Below are positions 9,678 to 47,423 of a stretch of 64,000 nt of DNA, in pieces. The notes below the pieces were generated by a model, which had not been told where the DNA came from, searched no databases, and worked only from the letters and a program-made list of their open reading frames with translations. Position 1 is the first letter of the stretch. Each line of letters begins with the position of its first letter. The stretch comes from a virus, in IMG/VR virus record IMGVR_UViG_3300033998_000095, positions 48,007-112,006 of that record. One strand, 5' to 3'. A program made the position numbers and the translations under genes.

Positions 9678-10667
9678 TTACCAAGTTAAATTATCCATAT
9701 GATCAATATTAATTCCAAATATATCTATAATTGGTTCTAGTCTCTTATAAATTGCAATATCAAGCATGGCATCTATATCTGGATAAAAAATAGAGGTATC
9801 TAAATTAACTCCTTCAGGTACTGTAATAACATCAATCTGATCGTTTTTAATTAGCAAACCCTCAACACGCATTTGCTTTAATTTCTTATCATAATCTTTG
9901 ATCTTGCTACCATCTACTTTACTTATAGTAAATGTATATCCTCTATCTCCTTCATAAAAGGTAGGACCATATATGACATTGTATATTTTCATGCCTCTTA
10001 TAGTCTTTGTCAATACTTTATATTCTCTAGCACCCCATCCACCAGGAACTCCTAAAGTATAATCACCAGCCATAAGTCTGGTTTTATATTCATCTATATA
10101 TTTGTCTATTAGATTTAAAATTTGAAAAGAGCTGTATTCTTCTCTTAATATCTTATCTATAACATCTTGTAACATCTGTTTAGTAAACCTTGGGAAATCT
10201 GCTCTAACCACCTCCATACCAGTGATACTTAGATTATCTATTTTCTTTCCTTCTTTGTTGATGATCCATAATGCATACTTCTTCTTTGCATCTAAGAACA
10301 TAGCTCTCTTAATAACTAATTCCTCTTTAAATGTAAAGTTATATTTAGTGGCAAGCTCAGAATCACCAGCATTATGCCTTTTAAGCATTTCAGGAATGAT
10401 ATATTTATTAATATATTCAGAACAATTTCTAACAATCTTTAAAGTGGTTTCTGTCTTTTCATCTTCACTTATTGAATCATATTTATCACCATATAATGAC
10501 TTGAGCACTGGTTCAATAAAGAGAAACATTGAGTCAGTATTATGTACTAAAATGTCATTAGCAAAAAACATATGGTTATTATCAACTTCAATATCATATA
10601 CATACTCTGGTACATTATTTTCAATTTTCTCAACAGATGCTATTCTTTCCTTTACTATAGGCATCAT
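9678..10667 (-). CDS. Family B DNA polymerase, C-terminal piece with split-intein C-half
   Basis: 329 residues. Residues 1-43 are an intein C-terminal half (YVYDIEVDNNHMFFAND then ILVHN). The next residues, TDSMFLF, complete polymerase motif C (YGD/TDS). Then come palm and thumb parts including KKKYALWIINKEGKK (the KKxY motif that binds primer-template). With the gene at 12188-15478 it makes a complete T4-like polymerase after protein trans-splicing. It has its own consensus promoter and a structured leader, and the helicase gene follows. Confidence 0.9.
   Translation of the reverse strand: MMPIVKERIASVEKIENNVPEYVYDIEVDNNHMFFANDILVHNTDSMFLFIEPVLKSLYGDKYDSISEDEKTETTLKIVRNCSEYINKYIIPEMLKRHNAGDSELATKYNFTFKEELVIKRAMFLDAKKKYALWIINKEGKKIDNLSITGMEVVRADFPRFTKQMLQDVIDKILREEYSSFQILNLIDKYIDEYKTRLMAGDYTLGVPGGWGAREYKVLTKTIRGMKIYNVIYGPTFYEGDRGYTFTISKVDGSKIKDYDKKLKQMRVEGLLIKNDQIDVITVPEGVNLDTSIFYPDIDAMLDIAIYKRLEPIIDIFGINIDHMDNLTW
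10539..10667 (-). other. Split intein C-half (IntC), 43 residues
   Basis: The segment has the intein block F pattern (YVYDIEV...HMFFAND) and block G (ILVHN), with the terminal Asn followed by Thr as the +1 extein residue. It matches the end of canonical pol-c inteins of archaeal polymerases in pattern. Asn43 cyclisation and Thr44 nucleophile are the expected chemistry. Confidence 0.9.
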
Positions 10668-12187: not shown

Positions 12188-15100
12188 TTATTTTTGGTTT
12201 GTCAATACAAGATCAGAATCCAATATTTCATTTGGTTTAACTTGCATTAATTGTCCATCTCTCTCAATCATAATAGAATGGTCTTCAGTTACAATTAATT
12301 CTTTTCCACTTTCAGTTCTAATTCTATACATTGGTTTATTAACTTTATGTCGTGATATATTATTTATTGATCTATATACAGCATCAGAATCTTCATATGT
12401 AAGTACTTTGTCATTTGCAAAGATATATTCTCTTCCTATATAATTCATAAGTTTGTATTCCTTATGCCTTTCAAATAGATCTTTGATTGGTATACCTTCT
12501 GGATATTGTTCAGTATTTATTTTTGTATTTTCATCAACAGAATCACCATATACTATATTCTCCAGTACATCAGCATCGAGAAATCTTGTATCAAATTCAT
12601 ATGGTTCAATATCCATCTTGTGAGCATCTCTCATTTTATTTAAATACTGATGAATATGATATGCACCCATTGTTACTATTTCTCTTCCAGATGCAGTTAT
12701 AGTCTCTGCAGATGGAAAATGAAACAGTCTAAAATATTGATTAGCAATTCCACCATATAGTGAGTTAGTAAGAACCTTATAAGTAAATTGCCAGTTATTA
12801 TATCTTTCTGCTAACATATGATTATTATTCTCAATAGCTTTAAACATTTCATTTTTATATCGTTTACGTTCTCTAATAAGCATATCTATAATTTCATAAT
12901 AAACTGACAATTTCGTGTTATGATTGACATACATTGTACCCATTATTGTTATTATCAAATTGTGTTTCGTTATAGTCTCATGCAATTTCTGTACTGTTAT
13001 CTGTTTAACATTTAAGTTCTTATCTTCATAATTAATAAGTCTATCTGGTTGAGGTAATAATTCATCTCTATTATAGATATACTCACGAGCTATATATTCA
13101 TCTACCTTACCAACATAGGTGTCAATAGAAATATTATATCGTGCAATGATATATGGATACAGAGAAGAAAGATCCAAATCAGCCAACCAGTTATATAATC
13201 CTTTTAATGGTTTTCTTACAAAAGCACCTTTAAGCTTTTCTGTTTCCTGATCATTATCTTTATCATATTCATATTTTTTACATATAACTGTCTTATTTTG
13301 TTTATCCAATGTTGTAAATAGAATACCATCTATAATTGGAAGTGTGCTGAATGATTCCTCCCAACTGATGTTGGTAGCTCTTATAATGTTAAATTGAATA
13401 TCAATATATTTAAGTTTATTGTCCAACTTTCTAACAAGATGAACATCATTAATATTATAAGCAATGAATCTATTGGGATCTGATAACCACATATCATCAA
13501 ATCGTTTGTCAAGAGACAATTTCTTTATACCAAGTTCGAATTCAGCAATAAATCCAAGTGTATATGATTCTCTTTTACTGAATGTTCTTTTCTTATACAA
13601 TGTTAAATAATCACATTCCACGACATATGGAATGTATGGTTTATTAGTTCTCTCATTAATAAAAATACGACCATATTTGTTTTTACATTCTATTCCAAGA
13701 TATTGTGATCTATTAATAATAATTGGCCAGTCAAATGCTGATGAGTTCCATCCTGTTACAAGATCAGGATCTATTTCATCAAATTTTTGAATAAACCCGT
13801 TCAACATCTTTCTCTCATCATTATATACAAATATTTCAATATTACATTCGTCTTTATATTCAAGATGTTTGATTATTTCTTGTTTATCAATGTTCAAATT
13901 GAATGAGTTGTTTATAAATGTATAATAAGTATCAGTATAGTTATCATACAGGGTTATCAACGATATAGCATATCTCTTTGCAGCTGCCATCATGTCATCA
14001 AGAAGCATCATATTGCCATTGAGAAACAATTCGATATCTATAGCAGCAATTCTTAATGGTTGTTCAGTCTCAGTATAAGTATTTCTAAACTGAATATTCT
14101 TATATACTGATAGATTCATATCTCCAAAGACATTAAACCCTTTACTCTTCAAATCATTTATTACATTTACTCTATCTTTAAACTGTATAACCTTGAGCTT
14201 TAGTTTATCCTTGTATTCAACAGTATTATTTGATTTACCATAATATAGAGCATATTTATCATCTGTAGTATGAATTATTTTATCTTGTCCTCTTCTTAAT
14301 ATATAATTAACTTCAGATTTAAGATAATTGTATACTGTATTGACTAACATTATATTATCTGATGTATTACTTGTGGTATCAGTATCACTCTTATTGTCAT
14401 TAACTGTTTCATATTTAGTATTGTTAGGAATAGGAAATAACTTCCTCACATCATCAGTAGTATAAGACATATGTGGTTGAACATTATCTTTTGATTCTAC
14501 AGCATATCTTATTTGTTTTAACCTATTAGCAAAAATATCGTATCTGGACATATTTCTGCATATTGCTGATGGATGAATACATGGCAATAATAGATGATCA
14601 TTATATTTATATATCTTTGTCATAGCATCAGTTATCTTATCTGTTATACCAAATCTACTACATGGATAATTACCAAGTGGAACTATAACAGCATCAGCAG
14701 GTAATTTAGAAATGATTAACTCTAGATTGTCAAAACAATATGCTATCTCATCTTTCATTGGTGGGTTTGATGGTTGATGAAAACATAAACAAACATTCAT
14801 AACACCCCAATGAATATCATTAAAACCAGTATTATCTAATGTTTGTCTTAATAACTGTCCTGCACGTCCAACAAAGGGTTTTCCTTCTTTAATTTCATTG
14901 ACAGCTGGTGCTTCTCCAACAAATAATACTTTAACTTGAGATATATCATTTGTTGTAAAATCAAAAATAGTTCTTTGTATATCATCTTTATTATTAGATT
15001 TGCATAATGCACATTGTGTAATGAGTCTCTTTTCTATCTCATCTTTCAATGGAGAGATAGTATCTATAGTATCTTCAACATTGCAAGAAACAATAGATTC

Positions 15101-15478
15101 TTGATTAAGATTTTCAGTATTATTATTTTTTGTCAATGTAAGATATGTTTTAATATCTTCTTCTGATAAATAGGGATGTTGGTGTTTTAATTGATTTATT
15201 TCATCAGTAACTTTCTTTGATTTGTTTGACATATATTGTATCTGTTTAGATCTATTAATATTTCTGTGAAATTCAGATAATTTATCAAAAGGTACATTTC
15301 GTGCAAGTATAGGATTAGTATTAATTAACTGATCTAAGTATATACAAGATAACACATCATCTTCAGATATATTTAATATCGTAGATATATTAAGTTGTTT
15401 AACTGAATCATCCAATGAATCAGTCTTATGTTGTATATAATAAATGTATTTAGTTAGTGGTGATAACTCTTTTGCCAT
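12188..15478 (-). CDS. Uracil-DNA glycosylase / family B DNA polymerase N-terminal piece / split-intein N-half
   Basis: 1096 residues. Residues ~150-330 are a family 4 UDG domain: GEAPA (188-192), PFVGRAGQLL (201-210), HPSA (302-305) and four Cys at 156, 159, 232, 248, spaced as 4Fe-4S ligands. Then comes a T4-type polymerase: Exo I DIE (481-483), Exo II TGWNSSAFDWP, Exo III YNIND (674-678), motif A DLDLSSLYP (metal Asp 769), motif B KVLTNSLYGG (901-910), motif C stopping at YGD (977-979). Residues 980-1096 are an intein N-half. The partner is the gene at 9678-10667. The ATG follows GGGGGA. Confidence 0.92.
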   Translation of the reverse strand: MAKELSPLTKYIYYIQHKTDSLDDSVKQLNISTILNISEDDVLSCIYLDQLINTNPILARNVPFDKLSEFHRNINRSKQIQYMSNKSKKVTDEINQLKHQHPYLSEEDIKTYLTLTKNNNTENLNQESIVSCNVEDTIDTISPLKDEIEKRLITQCALCKSNNKDDIQRTIFDFTTNDISQVKVLFVGEAPAVNEIKEGKPFVGRAGQLLRQTLDNTGFNDIHWGVMNVCLCFHQPSNPPMKDEIAYCFDNLELIISKLPADAVIVPLGNYPCSRFGITDKITDAMTKIYKYNDHLLLPCIHPSAICRNMSRYDIFANRLKQIRYAVESKDNVQPHMSYTTDDVRKLFPIPNNTKYETVNDNKSDTDTTSNTSDNIMLVNTVYNYLKSEVNYILRRGQDKIIHTTDDKYALYYGKSNNTVEYKDKLKLKVIQFKDRVNVINDLKSKGFNVFGDMNLSVYKNIQFRNTYTETEQPLRIAAIDIELFLNGNMMLLDDMMAAAKRYAISLITLYDNYTDTYYTFINNSFNLNIDKQEIIKHLEYKDECNIEIFVYNDERKMLNGFIQKFDEIDPDLVTGWNSSAFDWPIIINRSQYLGIECKNKYGRIFINERTNKPYIPYVVECDYLTLYKKRTFSKRESYTLGFIAEFELGIKKLSLDKRFDDMWLSDPNRFIAYNINDVHLVRKLDNKLKYIDIQFNIIRATNISWEESFSTLPIIDGILFTTLDKQNKTVICKKYEYDKDNDQETEKLKGAFVRKPLKGLYNWLADLDLSSLYPYIIARYNISIDTYVGKVDEYIAREYIYNRDELLPQPDRLINYEDKNLNVKQITVQKLHETITKHNLIITIMGTMYVNHNTKLSVYYEIIDMLIRERKRYKNEMFKAIENNNHMLAERYNNWQFTYKVLTNSLYGGIANQYFRLFHFPSAETITASGREIVTMGAYHIHQYLNKMRDAHKMDIEPYEFDTRFLDADVLENIVYGDSVDENTKINTEQYPEGIPIKDLFERHKEYKLMNYIGREYIFANDKVLTYEDSDAVYRSINNISRHKVNKPMYRIRTESGKELIVTEDHSIMIERDGQLMQVKPNEILDSDLVLTNQK
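12191..12541 (-). other. Split intein N-half (IntN), 117 residues
   Basis: Begins SVDENTKI directly after polymerase YGD (Ser as the first, nucleophilic residue). It contains block B ELIVTEDHSIMI (TxxH motif), ending LVLTNQK before the stop. The insertion point is the pol-c position used by archaeal polymerase inteins. No endonuclease domain is present in either half. Confidence 0.9.
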
Positions 15479-15557: not shown

Positions 15558-16823
15558 CTACAAGTGGGAGATGAATTGCCAATTATTGTTATGATTTATG
15601 AACTCTATATGCTTAAAACTAACTTGTTTATAAGATTTATTTGGTATAGTGATATAATTACCTTCTATATCTTGTATATATGCACCACCATTAGTAAAGC
15701 CTGTTATAAAACCAACTTTACCAAATACCTTCACTTTATCATTAAGATAAAAGCCATTTCTATATTTAGTGTTTTTACTGTTTCTTTTTTGAGTTCGATT
15801 TGGTTCTTTTCTACCTTTTCTTGGTATTGCTTCATGTAAACTACGCTTCTTTTTTCTAAATTGCTTTATTTTGAAGTAGTTGTCTGGATTATGCTTTATA
15901 CTTTCTATTCCTGTTATAGCTATCGCATCATTATAATGAGTTTTTTCTAAGCCTAATTCTTTTCTTCTTATAGTTGTATAACTGCCATAGACTATATTGG
16001 CTTCTGGGTATTTTTCAAAAACTCTACGTCTTATAATGTTCATTAATGGAGTTTCTTTATAACTTGGCATCTTTTTCTTTTCCATCATCCATTTGTAAAA
16101 TATGCCACCTTCTTGATGATTTTTATGTGTATGACAATCTGTGCAAACTGTTATTAAATTACTTGGTCTATCTGTACCACCTTTAGACTTATATACTATG
16201 TGGTGAGTTTGCAAAATCTTGCCTTTCTTCTTACATACTTGACAAGTATAATTATCTCTTGCAAATACATAATATCTCACATCATAGTAACCATAAGTTT
16301 CCCCTTGCTGGTATTCTACACCTTCTATGTCTGGATTCATCATTTTTTGAACATCAAATTTGCCTACTTCAATGCACAACTTAGGGCTTGGCAGTAAATT
16401 TATAAAGTTGTCTATCCATCTAAATGTATTATCAATTCTACTTTGAATTGAAGGTGGTAGCCAATCTTCTGGTCTCTTTCGGTTATTAAATCTAGGTTTT
16501 CTATATTTAGTTTTTCTATATCTCCTACTTCTACGATACTGCCTTCTTATATCTAAATTTTTCTTTACATCATTTCTTAGTTCAATTTCTCCTTTTATAA
16601 GAACTTTATCTTCACTTGTTACTGCTATTCCTATGTGTTTAGAGCCTAAATCTACACCTAAAGTTACAGGTTGTTTATAGCCACTACTTCCGTATAAAAG
16701 CTGAATTGTAAAAGGTTTATAACTAATTATCTTAGCTTTCTTTTGTTGTAGTAATTTTCTAGCTTTACTAGGTTTACATGGCATTAAATTTTCACCATGC
16801 TTATTTTTTACGAACACTAACAT
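15558..16823 (-). CDS. iscB: IscB RNA-guided nuclease 1
   Basis: 421 residues with full IscB architecture. The PLMP-like N-terminus is ENLMPCKPSKARKLL. RuvC-I is GVDLGSKHIGIA (Asp58). An Arg-rich bridge helix spans ~93-117 and RuvC-II is CIEVGKFD (Glu152). The HNH domain has CQVC (194-197), LQTHHIV (207-208) and CTDC (227-230). RuvC-III is HYNDAIAI (His296, Asp299), and a C-terminal beta domain follows. All expected catalytic residues are present, so it is probably active. IscB uses an omega RNA, encoded just upstream, to cut DNA. The stop codon lies inside the right-end hairpin of the element. Confidence 0.92.
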   Translation of the reverse strand: MLVFVKNKHGENLMPCKPSKARKLLQQKKAKIISYKPFTIQLLYGSSGYKQPVTLGVDLGSKHIGIAVTSEDKVLIKGEIELRNDVKKNLDIRRQYRRSRRYRKTKYRKPRFNNRKRPEDWLPPSIQSRIDNTFRWIDNFINLLPSPKLCIEVGKFDVQKMMNPDIEGVEYQQGETYGYYDVRYYVFARDNYTCQVCKKKGKILQTHHIVYKSKGGTDRPSNLITVCTDCHTHKNHQEGGIFYKWMMEKKKMPSYKETPLMNIIRRRVFEKYPEANIVYGSYTTIRRKELGLEKTHYNDAIAITGIESIKHNPDNYFKIKQFRKKKRSLHEAIPRKGRKEPNRTQKRNSKNTKYRNGFYLNDKVKVFGKVGFITGFTNGGAYIQDIEGNYITIPNKSYKQVSFKHIEFINHNNNWQFISHL

Positions 16824-17059
16824 AAAGTGCTCCTCCTTTCAGGAGTTGTTGCCCTTCGCCAATGTTATCTATCCTTACATGTGAAGCCGACTATCCCTAC
16901 CCCTTAGGATTGTTTACGTACTCCACGACAGAGCTTGGAACTAGGGCATCATTCCAATGTGTCATAAGATAGATAACGTAGCTTTCGCTTAGGCTAGTCA
17001 ACTAGGGCTTACAAGCCCCCACTTCAAGCACCTATGGTGCTAAGTGGTGGGTAGTTGAC
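16824..17059 (-). ncRNA. HEARO / omega RNA of IscB element 1
   Basis: Directly upstream of iscB. On the minus strand it begins GTCAACTACCCACCACTT and closes with TAGTTGAC after the hairpins CCACTT...AAGTGG and GGGCTTGTAAGCCC. It continues with CTACGTTATCTATCTTATG and CAAGCTCTG segments that recur in the other two HEARO RNAs here. It ends in a small GGAG hairpin just before the start codon. The first arm carries an additional AGCACC/GGTGCT extension not seen in the others. Confidence 0.88.
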
Positions 17060-39199: not shown

Positions 39200-40363
39200 A
39201 TGGGTGATATTTATGAACTGGTAAAAGAGATTGAAGAGGATTTGAAAGAGACTGTTGAGGATATTAGTTTTAATGAAGATATTGAAACCATACCAACTGG
39301 TATAGATCTATTTGATACTATACTTGGTGGTGGAATACCTGTTGGTAAGTTGGTGCTTATAACAGGTGCTCCTGGTGGTGGAAAGACAAGCTTAGCAATA
39401 AGTATGATATCATCTTTGCAAAAGAGATATAAAAATGCTCTTGCTTTATATCTTGATGCTGAACAGTCTATGGGAAAGAAGAGATTGGAAGAATTTGATG
39501 TTGATACTGATAGGACTATTCTCATTTCCCAAGATCTTACAGTAGAAAAGGTTAGCAAGATAATATCTAAAGCAACTGCATATAGAGAAAATAAAAAATA
39601 TAAAGATATTAATGATCCTTTCTTTGTGGTATGGGATAGTGAATCTGCTACCATGACAAATAAACAGTTAGCAGCAAACGATGATCCATCTAAAGTACTT
39701 GGACAAAAGTCAAACATGTTATCATTAGTTATCCCTAAACTGGTAAATGTTGCTAATAAGTATAAAATGACATTTATAGTTATATCTCAATTGAGAGATA
39801 AGATAAGTATGAATCCATTTGCATCTAACTCTCCTGATTTGAAAGGATTAGGTGATAAAAGAATAACTGGTGGAAATGTGATGCGTTTTCATCCATTTCA
39901 GATCATCTATATGAGACCAAAGGAAGATGTAGATATAGATGTTTATGGATTCTCAGGTGTTATATCTGAAGTTAAATTGATAAAGAATAAGTTGTTTAGA
40001 CCAAACATTAAAATTAACATAGTCTTAGATTATATACGTGGTTATAATGATTTTTGGACTAGAGAGTATCTAATAAGACAACATAAAGGTATAAAAGGTA
40101 CAGCATGGCAGTATTTAGATAATTATCCAGATGTTAAGTTTAGAAAAAGCGATATCCTTAATATGTATAATACAAATGAGACATTTAGACAGAAATTTGA
40201 TGAATTGTATTATACCTATAAAGAAGAACTTTTGAAATCTACACTTCTAGATACTGCTGTTGTTGATCTTGATGATTCTGAAGAAGCAGATGAAGAAGAT
40301 GGTGTTTCTGATGTCAACTACCCACCGCTTATAGAAGCGGAGGCTTGGAAAAGCCTTAGTTGA
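39200..40363 (+). CDS. UvsX/RecA-type recombinase with C-terminus altered by IscB insertion
   Basis: About 387 residues from ATG 39200 (GAAGGGG 9 bases upstream). GIDLFDTILGGGIPVGK, Walker A GAPGGGKT (56-63), ALYLDAEQS, VVWDSESATM and FIVISQLRDK mark the RecA core. UvsX forms filaments on single-stranded DNA for strand exchange and recombination-dependent replication. The native protein seems to end in an acidic tail DDSEEADEEDGVSD; the last 16 residues (VNYPPLIEAEAWKSLS) are translated from the left end of IscB element 2. Confidence 0.9.
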   Translation: MGDIYELVKEIEEDLKETVEDISFNEDIETIPTGIDLFDTILGGGIPVGKLVLITGAPGGGKTSLAISMISSLQKRYKNALALYLDAEQSMGKKRLEEFDVDTDRTILISQDLTVEKVSKIISKATAYRENKKYKDINDPFFVVWDSESATMTNKQLAANDDPSKVLGQKSNMLSLVIPKLVNVANKYKMTFIVISQLRDKISMNPFASNSPDLKGLGDKRITGGNVMRFHPFQIIYMRPKEDVDIDVYGFSGVISEVKLIKNKLFRPNIKINIVLDYIRGYNDFWTREYLIRQHKGIKGTAWQYLDNYPDVKFRKSDILNMYNTNETFRQKFDELYYTYKEELLKSTLLDTAVVDLDDSEEADEEDGVSDVNYPPLIEAEAWKSLS

Positions 40364-40556
40364 CTACCCTAAGTCTTAACTGACTACGTTGGAATAATTA
40401 TCTTACCCTGAAATGATGCCCAAGTTTCAGGCTCTAAGGTGGCTCTGTAAAAGTTCTGATGGGTAGGAACGGTCAACCACAATTGGCAGTTATACTGCAA
40501 AGTTATTCCAACATTGGGGATGGGCAAATAACTCCGAAAGGAGGGCTTAAAGCCAA
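40313..40556 (+). ncRNA. HEARO / omega RNA of IscB element 2
   Basis: Hairpins CCGCTTATAGAAGCGG and GGCTTGGAAAAGCC are enclosed by GTCAACTA/TAGTTGAC. The conserved ACTACCCTAAGTC...CTACGTTGGAATAATTA core and the ATGATGCCC and GGCTCT segments follow. It ends with GGAATAA...TTATTCC pairing and the ribosome site CCGAAAGGAGG just before iscB. Bases immediately 5' (the end of uvsX) would form the guide. Confidence 0.88.
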
Positions 40557-41870
40557 ATGTTAGTATATGTTATTTCAGTTGATGGGAAACCTTTAATGCC
40601 TTGCAAGCCTGCTAAGGTAAGAAAATTGCTGAAAAACAAGAAGGCTAAAATAGTAAAATATGAACCATTTACAATTCAATTATTATTTGAGTGTGAAAAC
40701 CAAGTGCAAGATTGTATATTAGGAATTGACGCAGGAAGTAAACATATAGGAATAGCAGTTATAACTGAACAAGGTAATGTGCTTTATCGTGCCGAAGCAG
40801 AATTAAGGCAAGATATAAAAGAAAATATTGAAACAAGGAAACGGCTTCGGCAAGCAAGACGTAATAGAAAAACAAGATATAGAAAACCTAGATTTCTAAA
40901 TAGAAAAAGGAAAGAAGGATGGTTACCACCGAGTATACAATCAAGAATTAATGCTCATATAAGACTAGTAAATGATATTGTAAAAATTTTACCTATAAGC
41001 AGAATAAGAGTAGAAATAGGGCAATTTGATACACAGGCATTAGTTAATCCAGATATTAATGGTATAGAATATCAACAGGGAGAAATGTATGGATATGATA
41101 GCGTAAAAGAATATGTAAAAATAAGAGATAATTTTACTTGTCATTATGCAAAATTAAGACCAGACATACCTTGCAATGATATTCTTGAAGTAGACCATAT
41201 TATACCAAGAAGCAAGGGTGGTAGCAATAATCCAAGCAATTTGGTATGTAGTTGTGAAGCACATAATAAAGCAAAAGGCAACATGGAATACAAAGAATTT
41301 ACAGGTAAAAATCTACCTAAGATAAAGCAATTTCAGGAAACGGCATTTATGAATGTTCTTAAAGATTATCTTGTGCCTAAACTACAAGAAATAATACCAA
41401 CGCAGTATACTTTTGGACTATACACACGCAGAAAGCGTAAAGAGTGGAATATAGAAAAGTCGCATATAAACGATGCAGTAGTAATTGCAAATATAAAACC
41501 AATGAAGTATAGCGATAATATATATTATATAAAGCAAGTACGCAAAAAGAAACGTAATTTGCATGAAGAAATACCGCGTAAAGGTAGAAAAGAACCTAAT
41601 AGGAAAGCAAAAAGAAATAGCAAAAATACAAAAGAAATAATTGTAAAAGAAAAGAAGTGGTGCTTGCGGGATAAAGTGTATATACCAGAAATAAATAAGA
41701 TTGGTTTTATATCGGGATTCGCTGGTAATTGGGTATATGTGCAAGATATACAAGGCAATTATTTACAAACAACATCTAAATATAAGCAAATTAGCACAGA
41801 AAAAATTCGATTGGCGTGTAGAAACAACAATTGGATAACCGATTCATCCTCCACTTTCGCTTACGCTTAG
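40557..41870 (+). CDS. iscB: IscB RNA-guided nuclease 2
   Basis: 437 residues. KPLMPCKPAKVRKLL (PLMP domain), RuvC-I GIDAGSKHIGIA (Asp58), bridge helix ~94-117, RuvC-II RVEIGQFD (Glu153), HNH LEVDHIIPRSKGG...AHNKAKG (213-241), RuvC-III SHINDAVVI. Catalytic residues look intact. Its HNH lacks the clear double CxxC zinc pattern of IscB 1 (HYAKLRPDIPC and CSCEAHN instead), and overall it is well diverged from IscB 1, so this is a separate acquisition rather than a recent copy. Confidence 0.92.
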   Translation: MLVYVISVDGKPLMPCKPAKVRKLLKNKKAKIVKYEPFTIQLLFECENQVQDCILGIDAGSKHIGIAVITEQGNVLYRAEAELRQDIKENIETRKRLRQARRNRKTRYRKPRFLNRKRKEGWLPPSIQSRINAHIRLVNDIVKILPISRIRVEIGQFDTQALVNPDINGIEYQQGEMYGYDSVKEYVKIRDNFTCHYAKLRPDIPCNDILEVDHIIPRSKGGSNNPSNLVCSCEAHNKAKGNMEYKEFTGKNLPKIKQFQETAFMNVLKDYLVPKLQEIIPTQYTFGLYTRRKRKEWNIEKSHINDAVVIANIKPMKYSDNIYYIKQVRKKKRNLHEEIPRKGRKEPNRKAKRNSKNTKEIIVKEKKWCLRDKVYIPEINKIGFISGFAGNWVYVQDIQGNYLQTTSKYKQISTEKIRLACRNNNWITDSSSTFAYA

Positions 41871-42440: not shown

Positions 42441-43808
42441 ATGATCAAAAATAATAATTTTATCTTGGACATGTTTTATACTTCAGAATTAGATAGCGTG
42501 GATGCTCAAAAGTTAGTACTGTTTAATGATGCTGATGTATTATGGTTTTATGAACAAGTAGAGTTTAATGGTACTATAATGTATAGAGTTCCACGCTATT
42601 ATTTTACTGATAAACAGGCTACAGATCTAACTACACATGGTGAAGATATTGATTTAAAAATTAAATCAGATTATGCTCCTCAAAGTGAAGCTCAAAGGTT
42701 AGCAATAGAAGCCATAGTTAATAATGATCATGGTTTAATAGCAGCTAAGGTTGGTTTTGGAAAAACATATGTTGCTATAGATGCTATATCTAGAATCAAA
42801 AAGAAGGCATTGATTGTAGTCAATAAAACAGCACTTATAGATCAGTGGATTGAGAGAATAATCCAATTTACATCTCTCACTGCTGATGATATTGGTATCA
42901 TATCTGGCAGAAAGCAAGAATTTAATAAACCCATTTGTATTGCTACTGTTCAGACTCTATTTAGAAGAGTTAAAAACGAAGATAAAGCCTTTATTAAAAG
43001 TATGTATGAAGCTAATTTTGGTGTTACCTTTTATGATGAATGCCATATAACAGCAGCAGCTCCAACATTTTCAACAAGTATTAAGACTATATTCTCTAAA
43101 AGACTATATGGATTGTCTGCTACGCCATATAGATCAGATGGTCTTGGACAATTATTGAATTGGTTTATAGGCCCAATTATATTTGATGATAGTAAGTTAA
43201 ATGTTCCTGTATATGTTGGACTAGTAGACATACCATTGTATATATCTCAAGGATATAAGAAGTATATTGAGTGGTCTAATGACAACAGCATAATAACACG
43301 CTATTGTAAGTTTCTTAAGAAACAGGATGTTTATATACGTCAGATAGCTAAGACAATAGATGATTTAATAAAATTAGATTTACAAATTTTAGGATTGAGT
43401 GCAATGATAGATCTTTTGTATATGATATATGATAAATGTCAATATAAACATAAGATATCTATAGTACATTCTTCTGTAGAGGAAAAAGATTATTCTAAAC
43501 AATGTATACTAGCTACATATGGAATGTTTAAAGAAGGAATGGATGTTCCACGTTTGAATACTTTAATTTATATAACTCCTATAACTAATAAGAACAGTTT
43601 AATGCAAAGCATAGGGAGAATCAGTAGATATACATCTGCAGATAAAAAGGCGTTTGTAATAGATATAGTTAATAGTGAATATGAACCATTGAAGAAGATG
43701 AGAGAATATAGGCTTCGCTATTACAAACAATTTGGATTTAAATATGTTAATGCTGATCTGGATAATATAGATAAGTTTATAGAGTATGCACGAGGAGGTA
43801 TTATATAA
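42441..43808 (+). CDS. UvsW-like superfamily 2 DNA helicase
   Basis: About 455 residues from ATG 42441, about 10 bases behind GGGGG. Q-motif-like APQSEAQRLAIEAI, Walker A AKVGFGKT (102-109), DECH box FYDECHITAAA, motif III LSATPYRSDG, motif VI QSIGRISRY. T4 UvsW unwinds branched DNA and R-loops, and switches origin-dependent to recombination-dependent replication. It overlaps the ribosome site of the NrdD C-terminal gene. Confidence 0.88.
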   Translation: MIKNNNFILDMFYTSELDSVDAQKLVLFNDADVLWFYEQVEFNGTIMYRVPRYYFTDKQATDLTTHGEDIDLKIKSDYAPQSEAQRLAIEAIVNNDHGLIAAKVGFGKTYVAIDAISRIKKKALIVVNKTALIDQWIERIIQFTSLTADDIGIISGRKQEFNKPICIATVQTLFRRVKNEDKAFIKSMYEANFGVTFYDECHITAAAPTFSTSIKTIFSKRLYGLSATPYRSDGLGQLLNWFIGPIIFDDSKLNVPVYVGLVDIPLYISQGYKKYIEWSNDNSIITRYCKFLKKQDVYIRQIAKTIDDLIKLDLQILGLSAMIDLLYMIYDKCQYKHKISIVHSSVEEKDYSKQCILATYGMFKEGMDVPRLNTLIYITPITNKNSLMQSIGRISRYTSADKKAFVIDIVNSEYEPLKKMREYRLRYYKQFGFKYVNADLDNIDKFIEYARGGII

Positions 43809-43809
43809 A

Positions 43810-44742
43810 ATGGATGGACAGAAGAAAGTAAAAAAATGTTTTGTACAGGGTGATATTGAGAGTAATAATGTATATATGACTTCTGGTTTACAACCACCAA
43901 CTGATGCTGATTTGATATATAGAAGTGAGATATCAGCATATACACAACCTTTCAGTAGTGGTGGTTGTTATGATGACAAAACAAAAGTCAGAACAGATAA
44001 TGGATGGAAGTATTTCAAAGATGTAGATATTGATGAAGATCGTTTTTACACTTTTAATATAGATAGTAATAGGATTCAGTTACAGCATGCTATAAAAAAA
44101 TTTGATTTCGATATTGATGAAGAATTAATTCATTTTAAAAGTACTGTATTGGATATAATGGTTACAAAAGATCATAATATGGTAATAATAGATAAAAATG
44201 GAAAATATAGAATTGTACAAGCATCAATGGTAGAAGAAATGTTTCAAAAAGGGGAACATATATTTATCCCAACTGCAGAAACAGAGCATGCTTCTTTAAA
44301 AGTACAGAGTATAGAACGAGTACCATATAAAGGAAAAGTATATTGTGTTGAAGTTCCCAATCATGTTTTGTATGTTAAAAGAGAATGTGGTATCCCTGTT
44401 TGGTGTGGAAACTCTATAGAACATGTCTTTCTTGGAGCTAAAGTGTCTGAAAAATTAAAAAAGGATATAATTGATAAGTTATTCGATATGCCAATTAATT
44501 ATATTACATTGTCACCAGTATTGAGCGTATGTAATAATTGTCATTCTAAGTTTGTAGGAGAACATTATGTATGCCCTAATTGCAAAGACGCTGATCATAT
44601 GATGATATATGCTAGGATAATTGGATATGTAAGACCAATCATATCAGGACATATACGCATAGAGAATAATATGATAAATGGTGATGAAAACTATTGGCAA
44701 GATGCTAGACGTGTTGATTGGGTAGACAGAAATAAGTTATAA
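43810..44742 (+). CDS. nrdD: NrdD C-terminal piece (glycyl radical domain) with mini-intein
   Basis: 310 residues from ATG 43810, chosen for GAGGAGG 9-10 bases upstream. Residues 1-52 and 202-310 are class III ribonucleotide reductase: VYMTSGLQPPTDADLIYRSE, FSSGG/SIEHVFLGAK, the four-Cys zinc site (241, 244, 255, 258), and glycyl radical motif RIIGYVRP (Gly272). Residues 53-201 are an inserted mini-intein. The rest of NrdD is the gene at 45870, downstream, so the order is reversed. The cut falls inside the catalytic barrel, so both parts should assemble to work. Confidence 0.87.
   Translation: MDGQKKVKKCFVQGDIESNNVYMTSGLQPPTDADLIYRSEISAYTQPFSSGGCYDDKTKVRTDNGWKYFKDVDIDEDRFYTFNIDSNRIQLQHAIKKFDFDIDEELIHFKSTVLDIMVTKDHNMVIIDKNGKYRIVQASMVEEMFQKGEHIFIPTAETEHASLKVQSIERVPYKGKVYCVEVPNHVLYVKRECGIPVWCGNSIEHVFLGAKVSEKLKKDIIDKLFDMPINYITLSPVLSVCNNCHSKFVGEHYVCPNCKDADHMMIYARIIGYVRPIISGHIRIENNMINGDENYWQDARRVDWVDRNKL
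43966..44412 (+). other. Mini-intein in NrdD, 149 residues
   Basis: Starts with Cys53 (CYDDKTKVRTDNGWKYFKDV), has block B IMVTKDHNMVII, block F GKVYCVEVPNHVLYVK, and ends IPVWCGN before Ser202. Length and lack of DOD motifs mean no homing endonuclease. The penultimate residue is Gly instead of the usual His, an exception known among inteins. Removal rejoins FSSGG to SIEHVFLG, matching NrdD. Confidence 0.9.
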
Positions 44743-44766
44743 TAAAGGAGCGTATGAAAAGAAAGA

Positions 44767-45174
44767 ATGGGTGAATGCAATTTGTATCTGATTAAAGCTA
44801 TATCTATACTAATTGAAGATGAAATATATCCAGATATACTATTACGCATAATGGCATCAGCAAAGACCTCTACACCCATTCTTTATTCATTAGTAAATAT
44901 ACTTAAAAGAGCAGAATTTATAGATGTACCAGATAAACAGTTGCTATATTTTATTAGTAAACATATAATTAAGTTATCTAAATATATACAAAGTAATACA
45001 TCATCTCGTGAATTAATACATGCTAGCATTAAAGATGAACTAGAGTCATTATCAATTTGGATTGATGTTGATAATAATCTTAGTAATTTAGTTTTAATTC
45101 TTTATAAGATGTTTCCAGAAGATCATGATATAGAAAACTTAGTAAAAAAAGTTAATAATATTCTTAAAGACTAA
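44767..45174 (+). CDS. Hypothetical helical protein
   Basis: 135 residues, ATG behind AAAGGAG. All-helical sequence (NLYLIKAISILIEDEIYPDI) with no recognised motif. It lies between the NrdD C-terminal gene and nrdG, so could be part of the nucleotide operon. Confidence 0.6.
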   Translation: MGECNLYLIKAISILIEDEIYPDILLRIMASAKTSTPILYSLVNILKRAEFIDVPDKQLLYFISKHIIKLSKYIQSNTSSRELIHASIKDELESLSIWIDVDNNLSNLVLILYKMFPEDHDIENLVKKVNNILKD

Positions 45175-45216
45175 TTCTGTAATAGTAGAATAACTTTTAT
45201 TGGGAGGTAATGTTAC

Positions 45217-45840
45217 ATGCGTGAACCAATGTTTTTTAATTTACAATGTTCTTTAGTTGATCATCCTGAGACAATTTCTGCTGTTGTTTATACCAGATTC
45301 TGTAATTGGAATTGCTGGGGTTGCCATAATATGAAGTATTTATTAAAAGGCAAAGATCTGGTATCATATACAATGGAAGATATAATTCAAGCTGCTAAGA
45401 ACCCACTTGTTGAATTATTAATTATTACTGGTGGAGAACCTCTTATTCAGGGTGATGAATTTATAGATGCTTTGAGATATCTTAGGCGGAATATAGAGAA
45501 ACCAATTAGATTAGATACCAATGGTACTTCTCCTGAATTAGTGAAACAGGTAAAAGAAGAAGGATTAGTAGATGGGTTTGCTGTAGATGTCAAGTTTCCA
45601 TATTGGTTAGAAGATCATGATAATATTTTACAAAAGATAACTGGTACAAAAGATATTGATAAGAGTGCTATACTTAAGACTATGAAGCTGGTTGATGGTA
45701 TGCCTTTTAGTTTATTTAGGACAGTTAAATATCCTATATTGTCAAATGAGCTTTTATCTTGTATAACTACATATATGAAGGATAATTTTACGTCACCACA
45801 TTTTGTGAACACATATTATACGTTTAATAATGTACAATAA
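45217..45840 (+). CDS. nrdG: Anaerobic ribonucleotide reductase activase
   Basis: 207 residues. The radical SAM cluster motif TRFCNWNCWGCHN (Cys 29, 33, 36) is followed by LLIITGGEPLIQGDEF, typical of NrdG. It uses S-adenosylmethionine to place the radical on the NrdD glycine (here Gly272 of the separate C-terminal piece). It is 30 bases ahead of the NrdD N-terminal gene. Confidence 0.92.
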   Translation: MREPMFFNLQCSLVDHPETISAVVYTRFCNWNCWGCHNMKYLLKGKDLVSYTMEDIIQAAKNPLVELLIITGGEPLIQGDEFIDALRYLRRNIEKPIRLDTNGTSPELVKQVKEEGLVDGFAVDVKFPYWLEDHDNILQKITGTKDIDKSAILKTMKLVDGMPFSLFRTVKYPILSNELLSCITTYMKDNFTSPHFVNTYYTFNNVQ

Positions 45841-45869
45841 TAAAATTATTTAAGGAGGATATAATTATC

Positions 45870-47423
45870 ATGTCAAAGTATACTGAAATAGTTGACAAAT
45901 ATCTTAATAGGGATGACATTTCCAGGCATAATAGTAATTTGGTTTATTCTTTACCTGCACTTAATTCAACATTATATGGTGAAGCAAGTAAAGAATATTG
46001 GTTTGAAAAGGTGTACCCATCATATGCCAGTAAATTGCATGAAGAAGGATGGCTATATATACATAATTTGAGCATATTAGGTCCATATTGTTCTGGATAT
46101 TCTGCTGAAGATATAGCTATGAAAGGACTTAATTCCACTGCTGTAAATGGATTAAAGACAGCCCCTCCCAAACATGTACATAGTCTTTTAGGTCAGTGCA
46201 GTAATTTTATTGCATTAATTTCTCAAGAAATACATGGTGCATGTGCTATAAATGATATTACAACAGTAGTGGCAGCCTATCTGTTTGTTGAAAGAGAGTT
46301 ATTAAACAGAAATGTTGATTATCAAGATCTAATTAATGCATGGCAGCATTTTATATTTGAAATTAATGTTCCTTTTAGAGCAGGTAATAGTTCTTTTTCT
46401 AATATCACAATGGCATTTGGAGGACCAGATGCTGCTTTAAAGGATGAATTTATTGTATTTGGTGGAAACCATTTAATTAAAAATACTGTTATACGTTCTG
46501 GAAATACAGAGATTAAACTTGATAGAGATTATAAGTATTCAGATGTACCTGCAAAATATTATGATGAAGTGAATAAAGCATTTATAGAGACTTTTGCAAA
46601 AGGAGATAATAGTGGAAAACCATTCAGTTTTCCTTTGATTACAGTTAATATAACTGATAATTTTGATTTTGATAATGAAATATTTAATATGCTACTTGAA
46701 GAAATGGATAAATGGGGTGGAGTATATTTTGAAAATTATAGAACCAAACCATTTCTTGAAGATAGCAAATATAAACAATTAAACAAGTATATTAAAGCTA
46801 GAAATATGGAGATGCAGAAATCATTTTGTTGTAGATTTCAAGTCTCTTTAGAGGATATATTGAAAATAAATAGTGGTATATTTAGAAGTGGTTCTGGTGT
46901 GGGTGGTGTTGGTGTATTTAATATTAATCTAAATAGAATTGGATATATAGCTCAAGGTGATTGGGATATATATTTCACTATTTTAGATGATCTTATGGAG
47001 AAAGCTGAAGAATTAGCACAGGCTAAGAGATGTTTTATAGAAGCGCATAAAGAACTATATCCTTACTTTTTCTTTTATAACCAATCTCTAGATTCTTATT
47101 TTAATGTTATATCTATTTGTGGTGGACATGAATCTCTTATGAATATGGGTTATTCAAAGGGATTACTTTCTGAAGATGGTATTGTTGCTGCTACTAAAAT
47201 AGGTGATTTTATGTGCAAGAAAGTTAATGCACTTATTAAGAGAGATAATATTCCTATAAATTTAGAATATGCTCCATCAGAATCTGCTGCTCCAAAGATG
47301 GCTAAAGCTGATTTGAGTTTCCAGAAATGGATAGAGAATGAGATGCAACCTGAAGATAAGTTTTCCTTTTTCAAGGATATCATAAAGCAGCAGTATGAAA
47401 AGGGAGTATTCTTTGAGGATTGA
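45870..47423 (+). CDS. nrdD: NrdD N-terminal piece (class III ribonucleotide reductase)
   Basis: 517 residues. NrdD barrel segments: AMKGLNSTAVNGLKTAPPKH, QEIHGACAINDITT, FPLITVNITDNFDFDNEIF, MQKSFCCRFQVSLEDILKIN, FRSGSGVGGVGVFNINLNRI, SICGGHESLMNMGYS, and INLEYAPSESAAPKMAKAD. It ends (KGVFFED) where a full NrdD would continue into the segment found at 43810. It lacks the zinc site and the glycyl radical. There is no intein at its end, so joining must be non-covalent. AAGGAGG precedes the ATG. Confidence 0.88.
   Translation: MSKYTEIVDKYLNRDDISRHNSNLVYSLPALNSTLYGEASKEYWFEKVYPSYASKLHEEGWLYIHNLSILGPYCSGYSAEDIAMKGLNSTAVNGLKTAPPKHVHSLLGQCSNFIALISQEIHGACAINDITTVVAAYLFVERELLNRNVDYQDLINAWQHFIFEINVPFRAGNSSFSNITMAFGGPDAALKDEFIVFGGNHLIKNTVIRSGNTEIKLDRDYKYSDVPAKYYDEVNKAFIETFAKGDNSGKPFSFPLITVNITDNFDFDNEIFNMLLEEMDKWGGVYFENYRTKPFLEDSKYKQLNKYIKARNMEMQKSFCCRFQVSLEDILKINSGIFRSGSGVGGVGVFNINLNRIGYIAQGDWDIYFTILDDLMEKAEELAQAKRCFIEAHKELYPYFFFYNQSLDSYFNVISICGGHESLMNMGYSKGLLSEDGIVAATKIGDFMCKKVNALIKRDNIPINLEYAPSESAAPKMAKADLSFQKWIENEMQPEDKFSFFKDIIKQQYEKGVFFED

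Follow-up and report, generated by a model that had tools for sequence, protein, structure and literature searches.

We find that a phage contig encodes what is most probably (at a probability of roughly 0.74) a functional class III, or anaerobic, ribonucleotide reductase (RNR) whose catalytic protein, NrdD, would be made as two polypeptides that join non-covalently after one of them has spliced out an intein in cis. The locus lies in the window, the whole 64,000-base stretch of DNA analysed here, which comprises bases 48007–112006 of the 112,006-base IMG/VR phage record IMGVR_UViG_3300033998_000095; coordinates below are window positions. Within a run of + strand genes, a C-terminal piece of NrdD (C-piece) is followed by an open reading frame (ORF) of 135 amino acids (aa), by nrdG and by an N-terminal piece (N-piece), so that the two parts of the enzyme are encoded in reversed order. 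The features of the locus are as follows.

43793–43799, + strand: Shine–Dalgarno sequence AGGAGGT of the C-piece, with a 10-base spacer to the ATG at 43810 (from sequence).
43810–44742, + strand: nrdD C-piece, a 310-aa precursor of about 161 aa once spliced, with the last barrel strands, zinc site and glycyl-radical loop (Pfam NRDD, hidden Markov model (HMM) and Foldseek).
43810–43965, + strand: N-extein of the C-piece, 52 aa, ending FSSGG (from sequence and HMM comparison).
43966–44412, + strand: 149-aa mini-intein, Cys1 to Asn149, without an endonuclease domain (homologous intein ends, a weak Pfam Intein_splicing match and a site shared with loci L018 and L090).
44413–44742, + strand: C-extein of the C-piece, beginning SIEHVFLG, with four zinc cysteines and RIIGYVRP; predicted radical glycine codon at 44623–44625 (from sequence).
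44767–45174, + strand: 135-aa ORF between the C-piece and nrdG, matching no Pfam or NCBIfam family.
45217–45840, + strand: nrdG, a radical S-adenosylmethionine (SAM) activase with a CNWNCWGC motif (Radical_SAM, E = 5.5e-17; NCBIfam NrdG2, E = 8.8e-29, under the curated cut-off).
45852–45859, + strand: Shine–Dalgarno sequence AAGGAGGA of the N-piece (from sequence).
45870–47423, + strand: nrdD N-piece, 517 aa, with barrel strands 1–8, C74, the C320–C321 finger loop and a 33-aa non-homologous tail (Pfam NRDD, AlphaFold (AF2) and Foldseek).

Several lines of evidence identify the two genes as complementary parts of one NrdD. First, both match the Pfam NRDD profile above its cut-off, the N-piece at profile positions 2–428 (E = 8e-70) and the C-piece at 469–545 (E = 3e-13). 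Second, on a 606-column NrdD HMM that we made from intact relatives, homology of the N-piece stops at around column 463–468 and is followed by a stretch of about 33 unrelated residues; the spliced C-piece matches columns 462–584. The pieces therefore abut without substantial overlap, as a preliminary description of this DNA had proposed, and, joined in that order, they align along intact phage NrdDs. Third, the residues expected of a single enzyme are shared out between them. The N-piece retains the catalytic C74 and the C320–C321 finger loop and has no zinc site, glycyl-radical loop or RxxGY motif; the C-piece holds the zinc cysteines C241, C244, C255 and C258 and the radical motif R269-I-I-G272-Y (precursor numbering). 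This division, and the placement of nrdG between the two genes, had been described correctly. Together with the radical-SAM activase, whose NrdG2 match lies below the curated cut-off, the locus thus has the NRDD homology over body and C terminus, the catalytic and zinc cysteines and the RxxGY motif of a class III RNR. It departs from that class in using two genes instead of one polypeptide, which leaves the homology unaffected.

The pieces also have separate translation signals, each with its own start and stop codons and a strong Shine–Dalgarno sequence at normal distance. For the C-piece, an alternative ATG lies in frame further upstream, at 43786, but the start at 43810 is the correct one, as AGGAGGT lies 10 bases before it. 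Both ORFs are intact, and the intergenic gaps around them are regular and tight. Besides the two pieces, no further NrdD match, and so no complete nrdD, was found on the 112,006-base contig, which may be an incomplete genome.

The AF2 model of the N-piece is confident, with a mean predicted local distance difference test (pLDDT) score of 83.8 and a predicted template modelling score of 0.85, and shows eight of ten barrel strands plus a helix, with residues 491–517 disordered. In Foldseek searches, solved class III reductases rank first, the top match being Thermotoga maritima NrdD (4u3e, E = 7e-18). Most of the C-extein is modelled at pLDDT 73–89 as two further strands with the zinc and glycyl hairpins, and 4u3e is again the top Foldseek match of the extein part. 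Since the N-piece model ends after strand 8 of ten, the split falls inside the catalytic barrel, in keeping with the earlier description.

The second distinctive element is the intein in the C-piece, recovered with the boundaries first proposed for it, between FSSGG and SIEHVFLG. It spans exactly 149 residues, from Cys53 to Asn201 of the 310-aa precursor with Ser202 next (FSSGG/C...N/S, with slashes marking the junctions), starts CYDDKTKVRTDNGWKYFKDV and ends VPYKGKVYCVEVPNHVLYV...VWCGN. The motifs of a class 1 intein are present: the N-terminal Cys53, a TxxH block reading T-K-D-H, the C-terminal Asn201 and Ser202 at position +1. Because the curated Pfam match is sub-threshold (Intein_splicing, 18.1 bits against a cut-off of 35.8, E = 0.0024), the assignment rests on pairwise homology and insertion position. 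The intein ends are homologous to those of inteins in terminase-like, DNA-polymerase-like and other genes of unrelated phages (L003–L008; for example, GCYDDKTRVLTDNGWKYFKDV and VWCGN/S in L003), where a long central insertion is present that the intein in the window lacks. The NrdD genes of phage loci L018 and L090 carry inteins at exactly this insertion point (YSGG/C...HN/T), and an intein has been reported in the nrdD of Clostridium phage c-st (PMC3653736). As a separate observation, L133 and L156 have nrdD ORFs of more than 2,000 aa in which the NrdD sequence falls into four to five separate segments; the inserts between them are probably inteins.

The intein is contiguous and lies away from the split, so its halves do not sit on separate genes at the break as those of a split intein do. 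The joint itself shows no intein motif, at either the N-piece end or the C-piece start, and no intron family; non-covalent assembly after cis-splicing, as first suggested, is therefore the best reading. The upstream gene would make the 310-aa precursor, from which the mini-intein would excise itself in cis, leaving a subunit of about 161 aa. This subunit would contain the final strands of the barrel together with the zinc site and the radical glycine (precursor Gly272), and the 517-aa body made from the downstream gene would contribute the nucleotide site and catalytic cysteines. After the two had associated without a covalent link, NrdG would place the radical on the small subunit, from which it would pass to a cysteine of the body. 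Split enzymes that assemble in this manner have precedents in the functional NrdA of phage Aeh1 and the DNA polymerase of phage 25 (PMC2988022).

Related loci point to how such a split could arise. In phage L089, nrdD is in normal order and is broken at the same joint as in the window (column 467/460), and the 352-aa ORF between its pieces has weak matches to the restriction-endonuclease fold MTES_1575 (Pfam E = 9e-5, below cut-off) and to Mom; we regard it as a putative homing endonuclease. The L089 main piece also carries inteins, and a second break frees its glycyl-radical loop. L094 (5932–6357) is a stand-alone 141-aa C-terminal piece that starts just before YYTNS, close to the joint, on a 39-kb contig with no NrdD body. 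The breaks in L089 and L094 indicate that the site tolerates interruption. In the window, only the 135-aa ORF and nrdG lie between the pieces; L089, by contrast, has the form of an endonuclease-fractured gene, weakly by Pfam. We infer that the gene may have broken at a site tolerating homing-endonuclease insertion and been rearranged afterwards, for example by tandem duplication and complementary loss, to give the order C-piece, intervening ORF, nrdG, N-piece.

The window also encodes a T4-type portal, a family B DNA polymerase, a clamp loader and a RecA-like protein. The position of the 135-aa ORF suggests a role with the reductase. Two genes (12188–15478 and 9678–10667, both on the − strand) encode the polymerase, which carries a fused uracil-DNA glycosylase domain. 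A split intein divides it at YGD/TDS: the first gene closes with an intein N-half that begins SVDENTKI, and in the second gene the C-half ends in VHN, ahead of TDS. The region aligns continuously with a relative contig, G001, that is 91–98% identical to window positions 1–40474 and ends before the nrdD region. Two IscB-type genes (RRXRR plus HNH; 15558–17059, − strand, and 40313–41870, + strand) are each adjoined by a HEARO RNA (Rfam, 129–136 bits). The first of these elements is missing at the corresponding site in G001, which fits a mobile element.

Several observations weigh against a functional two-piece enzyme. The N-piece is the most divergent member of its alignment, keeping 76% of the 95%-conserved columns compared with a median of 98%; the model of the C-piece as a whole has a low mean pLDDT of 57.7; and the penultimate intein residue is Gly instead of the usual His. 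The arrangement is known from one metagenome-derived contig. A search of 2.9 million viral contigs returned no close relative of the N-piece, and for the C-piece matched only inteins in other genes, with no close relative. A match in Lak phage A1 was an intein inside another gene, not NrdD, and a search for relatives with the nrdG of the window gave no match.

Among other explanations, the best placed, although improbable, is that the C-piece serves mainly as a spare part for an oxygen-damaged NrdD of the host, in the manner of YfiD, with the N-piece a separate remnant or partner. Stand-alone C-terminal pieces do occur on contigs that carry no main nrdD, namely the L094 piece and the zinc-plus-glycyl proteins of L157 (5989–6189, 67 aa) and L158 (5980–6174, 65 aa), and L193 and L198 pair a complete or near-complete NrdD with an extra small glycyl-radical gene. 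In the window, however, the small protein does not stand beside a complete enzyme (none is on the contig). The N-piece is intact and keeps its catalytic residues, the contig offers it no other glycyl-radical domain, and the C-piece, which is divergent from other NrdDs, has barrel strands beyond a YfiD-like tail.

Somewhat less probable still is the decay of a lost nrdD, of which both pieces would be fragments. The divergence of the N-piece would fit such decay, which has been seen in a Campylobacter phage nrdA (PMC3653736), but two long intact ORFs with strong ribosome-binding sites adjoin an intact nrdG, and the splicing motifs are kept, as are all of the zinc residues and the key catalytic ones. 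We think it quite unlikely that a trans-splicing RNA or a hidden split intein links the pieces covalently: trans-spliced genes typically show rearranged order, and the polymerase of the same genome contains a split intein, yet both pieces have start and stop codons of their own, neither end at the joint has an intein motif, no relevant Rfam match lies at 43.0–48.5 kb and the Pfam intein matches across the whole contig are the two polymerase halves only. Finally, an assembly artefact is very improbable, even for a single contig whose close relative stops at 40474, because a misjoin would cut reading frames arbitrarily and both split ends are natural gene ends with Shine–Dalgarno sequences and regular intergenic spacing.

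The NrdD of the window shares its fold, catalytic cysteines, zinc site, glycyl-radical motif and NrdG partner with the NrdDs of T4 and T. maritima (Pfam NRDD), and differs from them in its two genes, reversed order, split after barrel strand 8 and intein in the radical piece. The split NrdA of Aeh1 and the split DNA polymerase of phage 25 are likewise enzymes of nucleotide metabolism or replication that assemble non-covalently from two gene products, as proposed here. Their splits are linked to homing endonucleases, whereas none remains at the split in the window; Aeh1 NrdA is class I instead of class III, and in both phages gene order is normal and no piece contains an intein (PMC2988022, PMC3653736). 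Jug phage nrdD is also in several fragments, one joint of which lacks evidence of RNA splicing, but it is broken mainly by group I introns and endonucleases and is cotranscribed as an operon, and the accessible part of that report describes no reversed order (PMC12363816). YfiD, the autonomous glycyl-radical cofactor, is a separate small glycyl-radical-domain protein as in the window; it repairs pyruvate formate-lyase, whereas the C-piece, an NrdD domain, includes barrel strands and a zinc site and appears to be required, not spare (PMC8683613). L089 shares the joint with the window and differs in its normal order, its surviving endonuclease-like gene and its second break.

The window is a more extreme variant of a wider pattern and not an isolated oddity. 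At least 18 phage loci (L019, L036, L041, L048–L050, L053, L055, L057–L059, L062, L069, L071, L075, L089, L149 and L153) encode the glycyl-radical loop (columns ~569–604) as its own ORF, and the main NrdDs checked among them stop after the zinc site, without RxxGY. In L149, the main gene is directly preceded by a small glycyl-radical gene that has a ribosome-binding site of its own; reversed order therefore occurs outside the window too. The preliminary description had judged the arrangement non-standard. This holds for the combination of an early split and a reversed order with an intein in the radical piece, but not for its parts: other loci show detached radical pieces, a break at this joint or a reversed gene order. 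The stand-alone phage proteins of 65–141 aa (L094, L157 and L158) are possible spare parts for a host enzyme.

Detached glycyl-radical genes are also found in bacterial genomes, in Elusimicrobia, Treponema and Betaproteobacteria. In the family of Treponema G008, by our count, 48 of 60 genomes have a stand-alone glycyl-radical ORF; in at least 8, more than 90 kb of the same contig separate this ORF from the main gene. G061 (Treponemataceae) has a single NrdD, a body of 571 aa that terminates in a charged helix-like segment; 0.8 Mb away, a 170-aa tail begins with a similar charged segment and continues with ARIVGYYR and a glutaredoxin-like part. We would guess at a coiled-coil contact between the two segments. 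In Betaproteobacterium G011, a single body is accompanied by three tails. Bacterial detached tails (for example, G061, G053, L223–L247, L193, L198 and G011) are often fused to a glutaredoxin-like part in Treponema and are sometimes unlinked or multi-copy. Given the detached glycyl-radical genes of phages and bacteria, among them Treponemataceae with a tail gene far from the only nrdD, a non-covalent radical subunit looks viable.

On balance, it seems likely that class III RNRs occur in nature as two-subunit enzymes whose radical subunit is detachable and can be encoded separately, upstream of the body or far from it, both in phages and in bacteria such as Treponema; the window would then represent the earliest break, with a radical subunit that needs its intein removed before it can act. 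The searchable literature, which leaves out subscription sources, contains no report of a split NrdD with a separate glycyl-radical gene or of a Treponema NrdD so split. The detachable radical piece is far commoner in phages and bacteria than searchable papers report, and the broader class of two-subunit class III reductases is apparently under-described, although the pattern may already be known to specialists.

Oxygen cleaves glycyl-radical enzymes at the radical glycine. If the radical part is a separate subunit that can be replaced, synthesis of the small piece alone could restore damaged enzyme, and the supply of deoxynucleoside triphosphates could be controlled through subunit exchange or intein splicing. 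The window shows the extent to which the catalytic barrel can be divided, and the wider two-subunit pattern, for which the comparative data supply many natural test systems, some of them in cultured Treponema, may matter more than this one variant.

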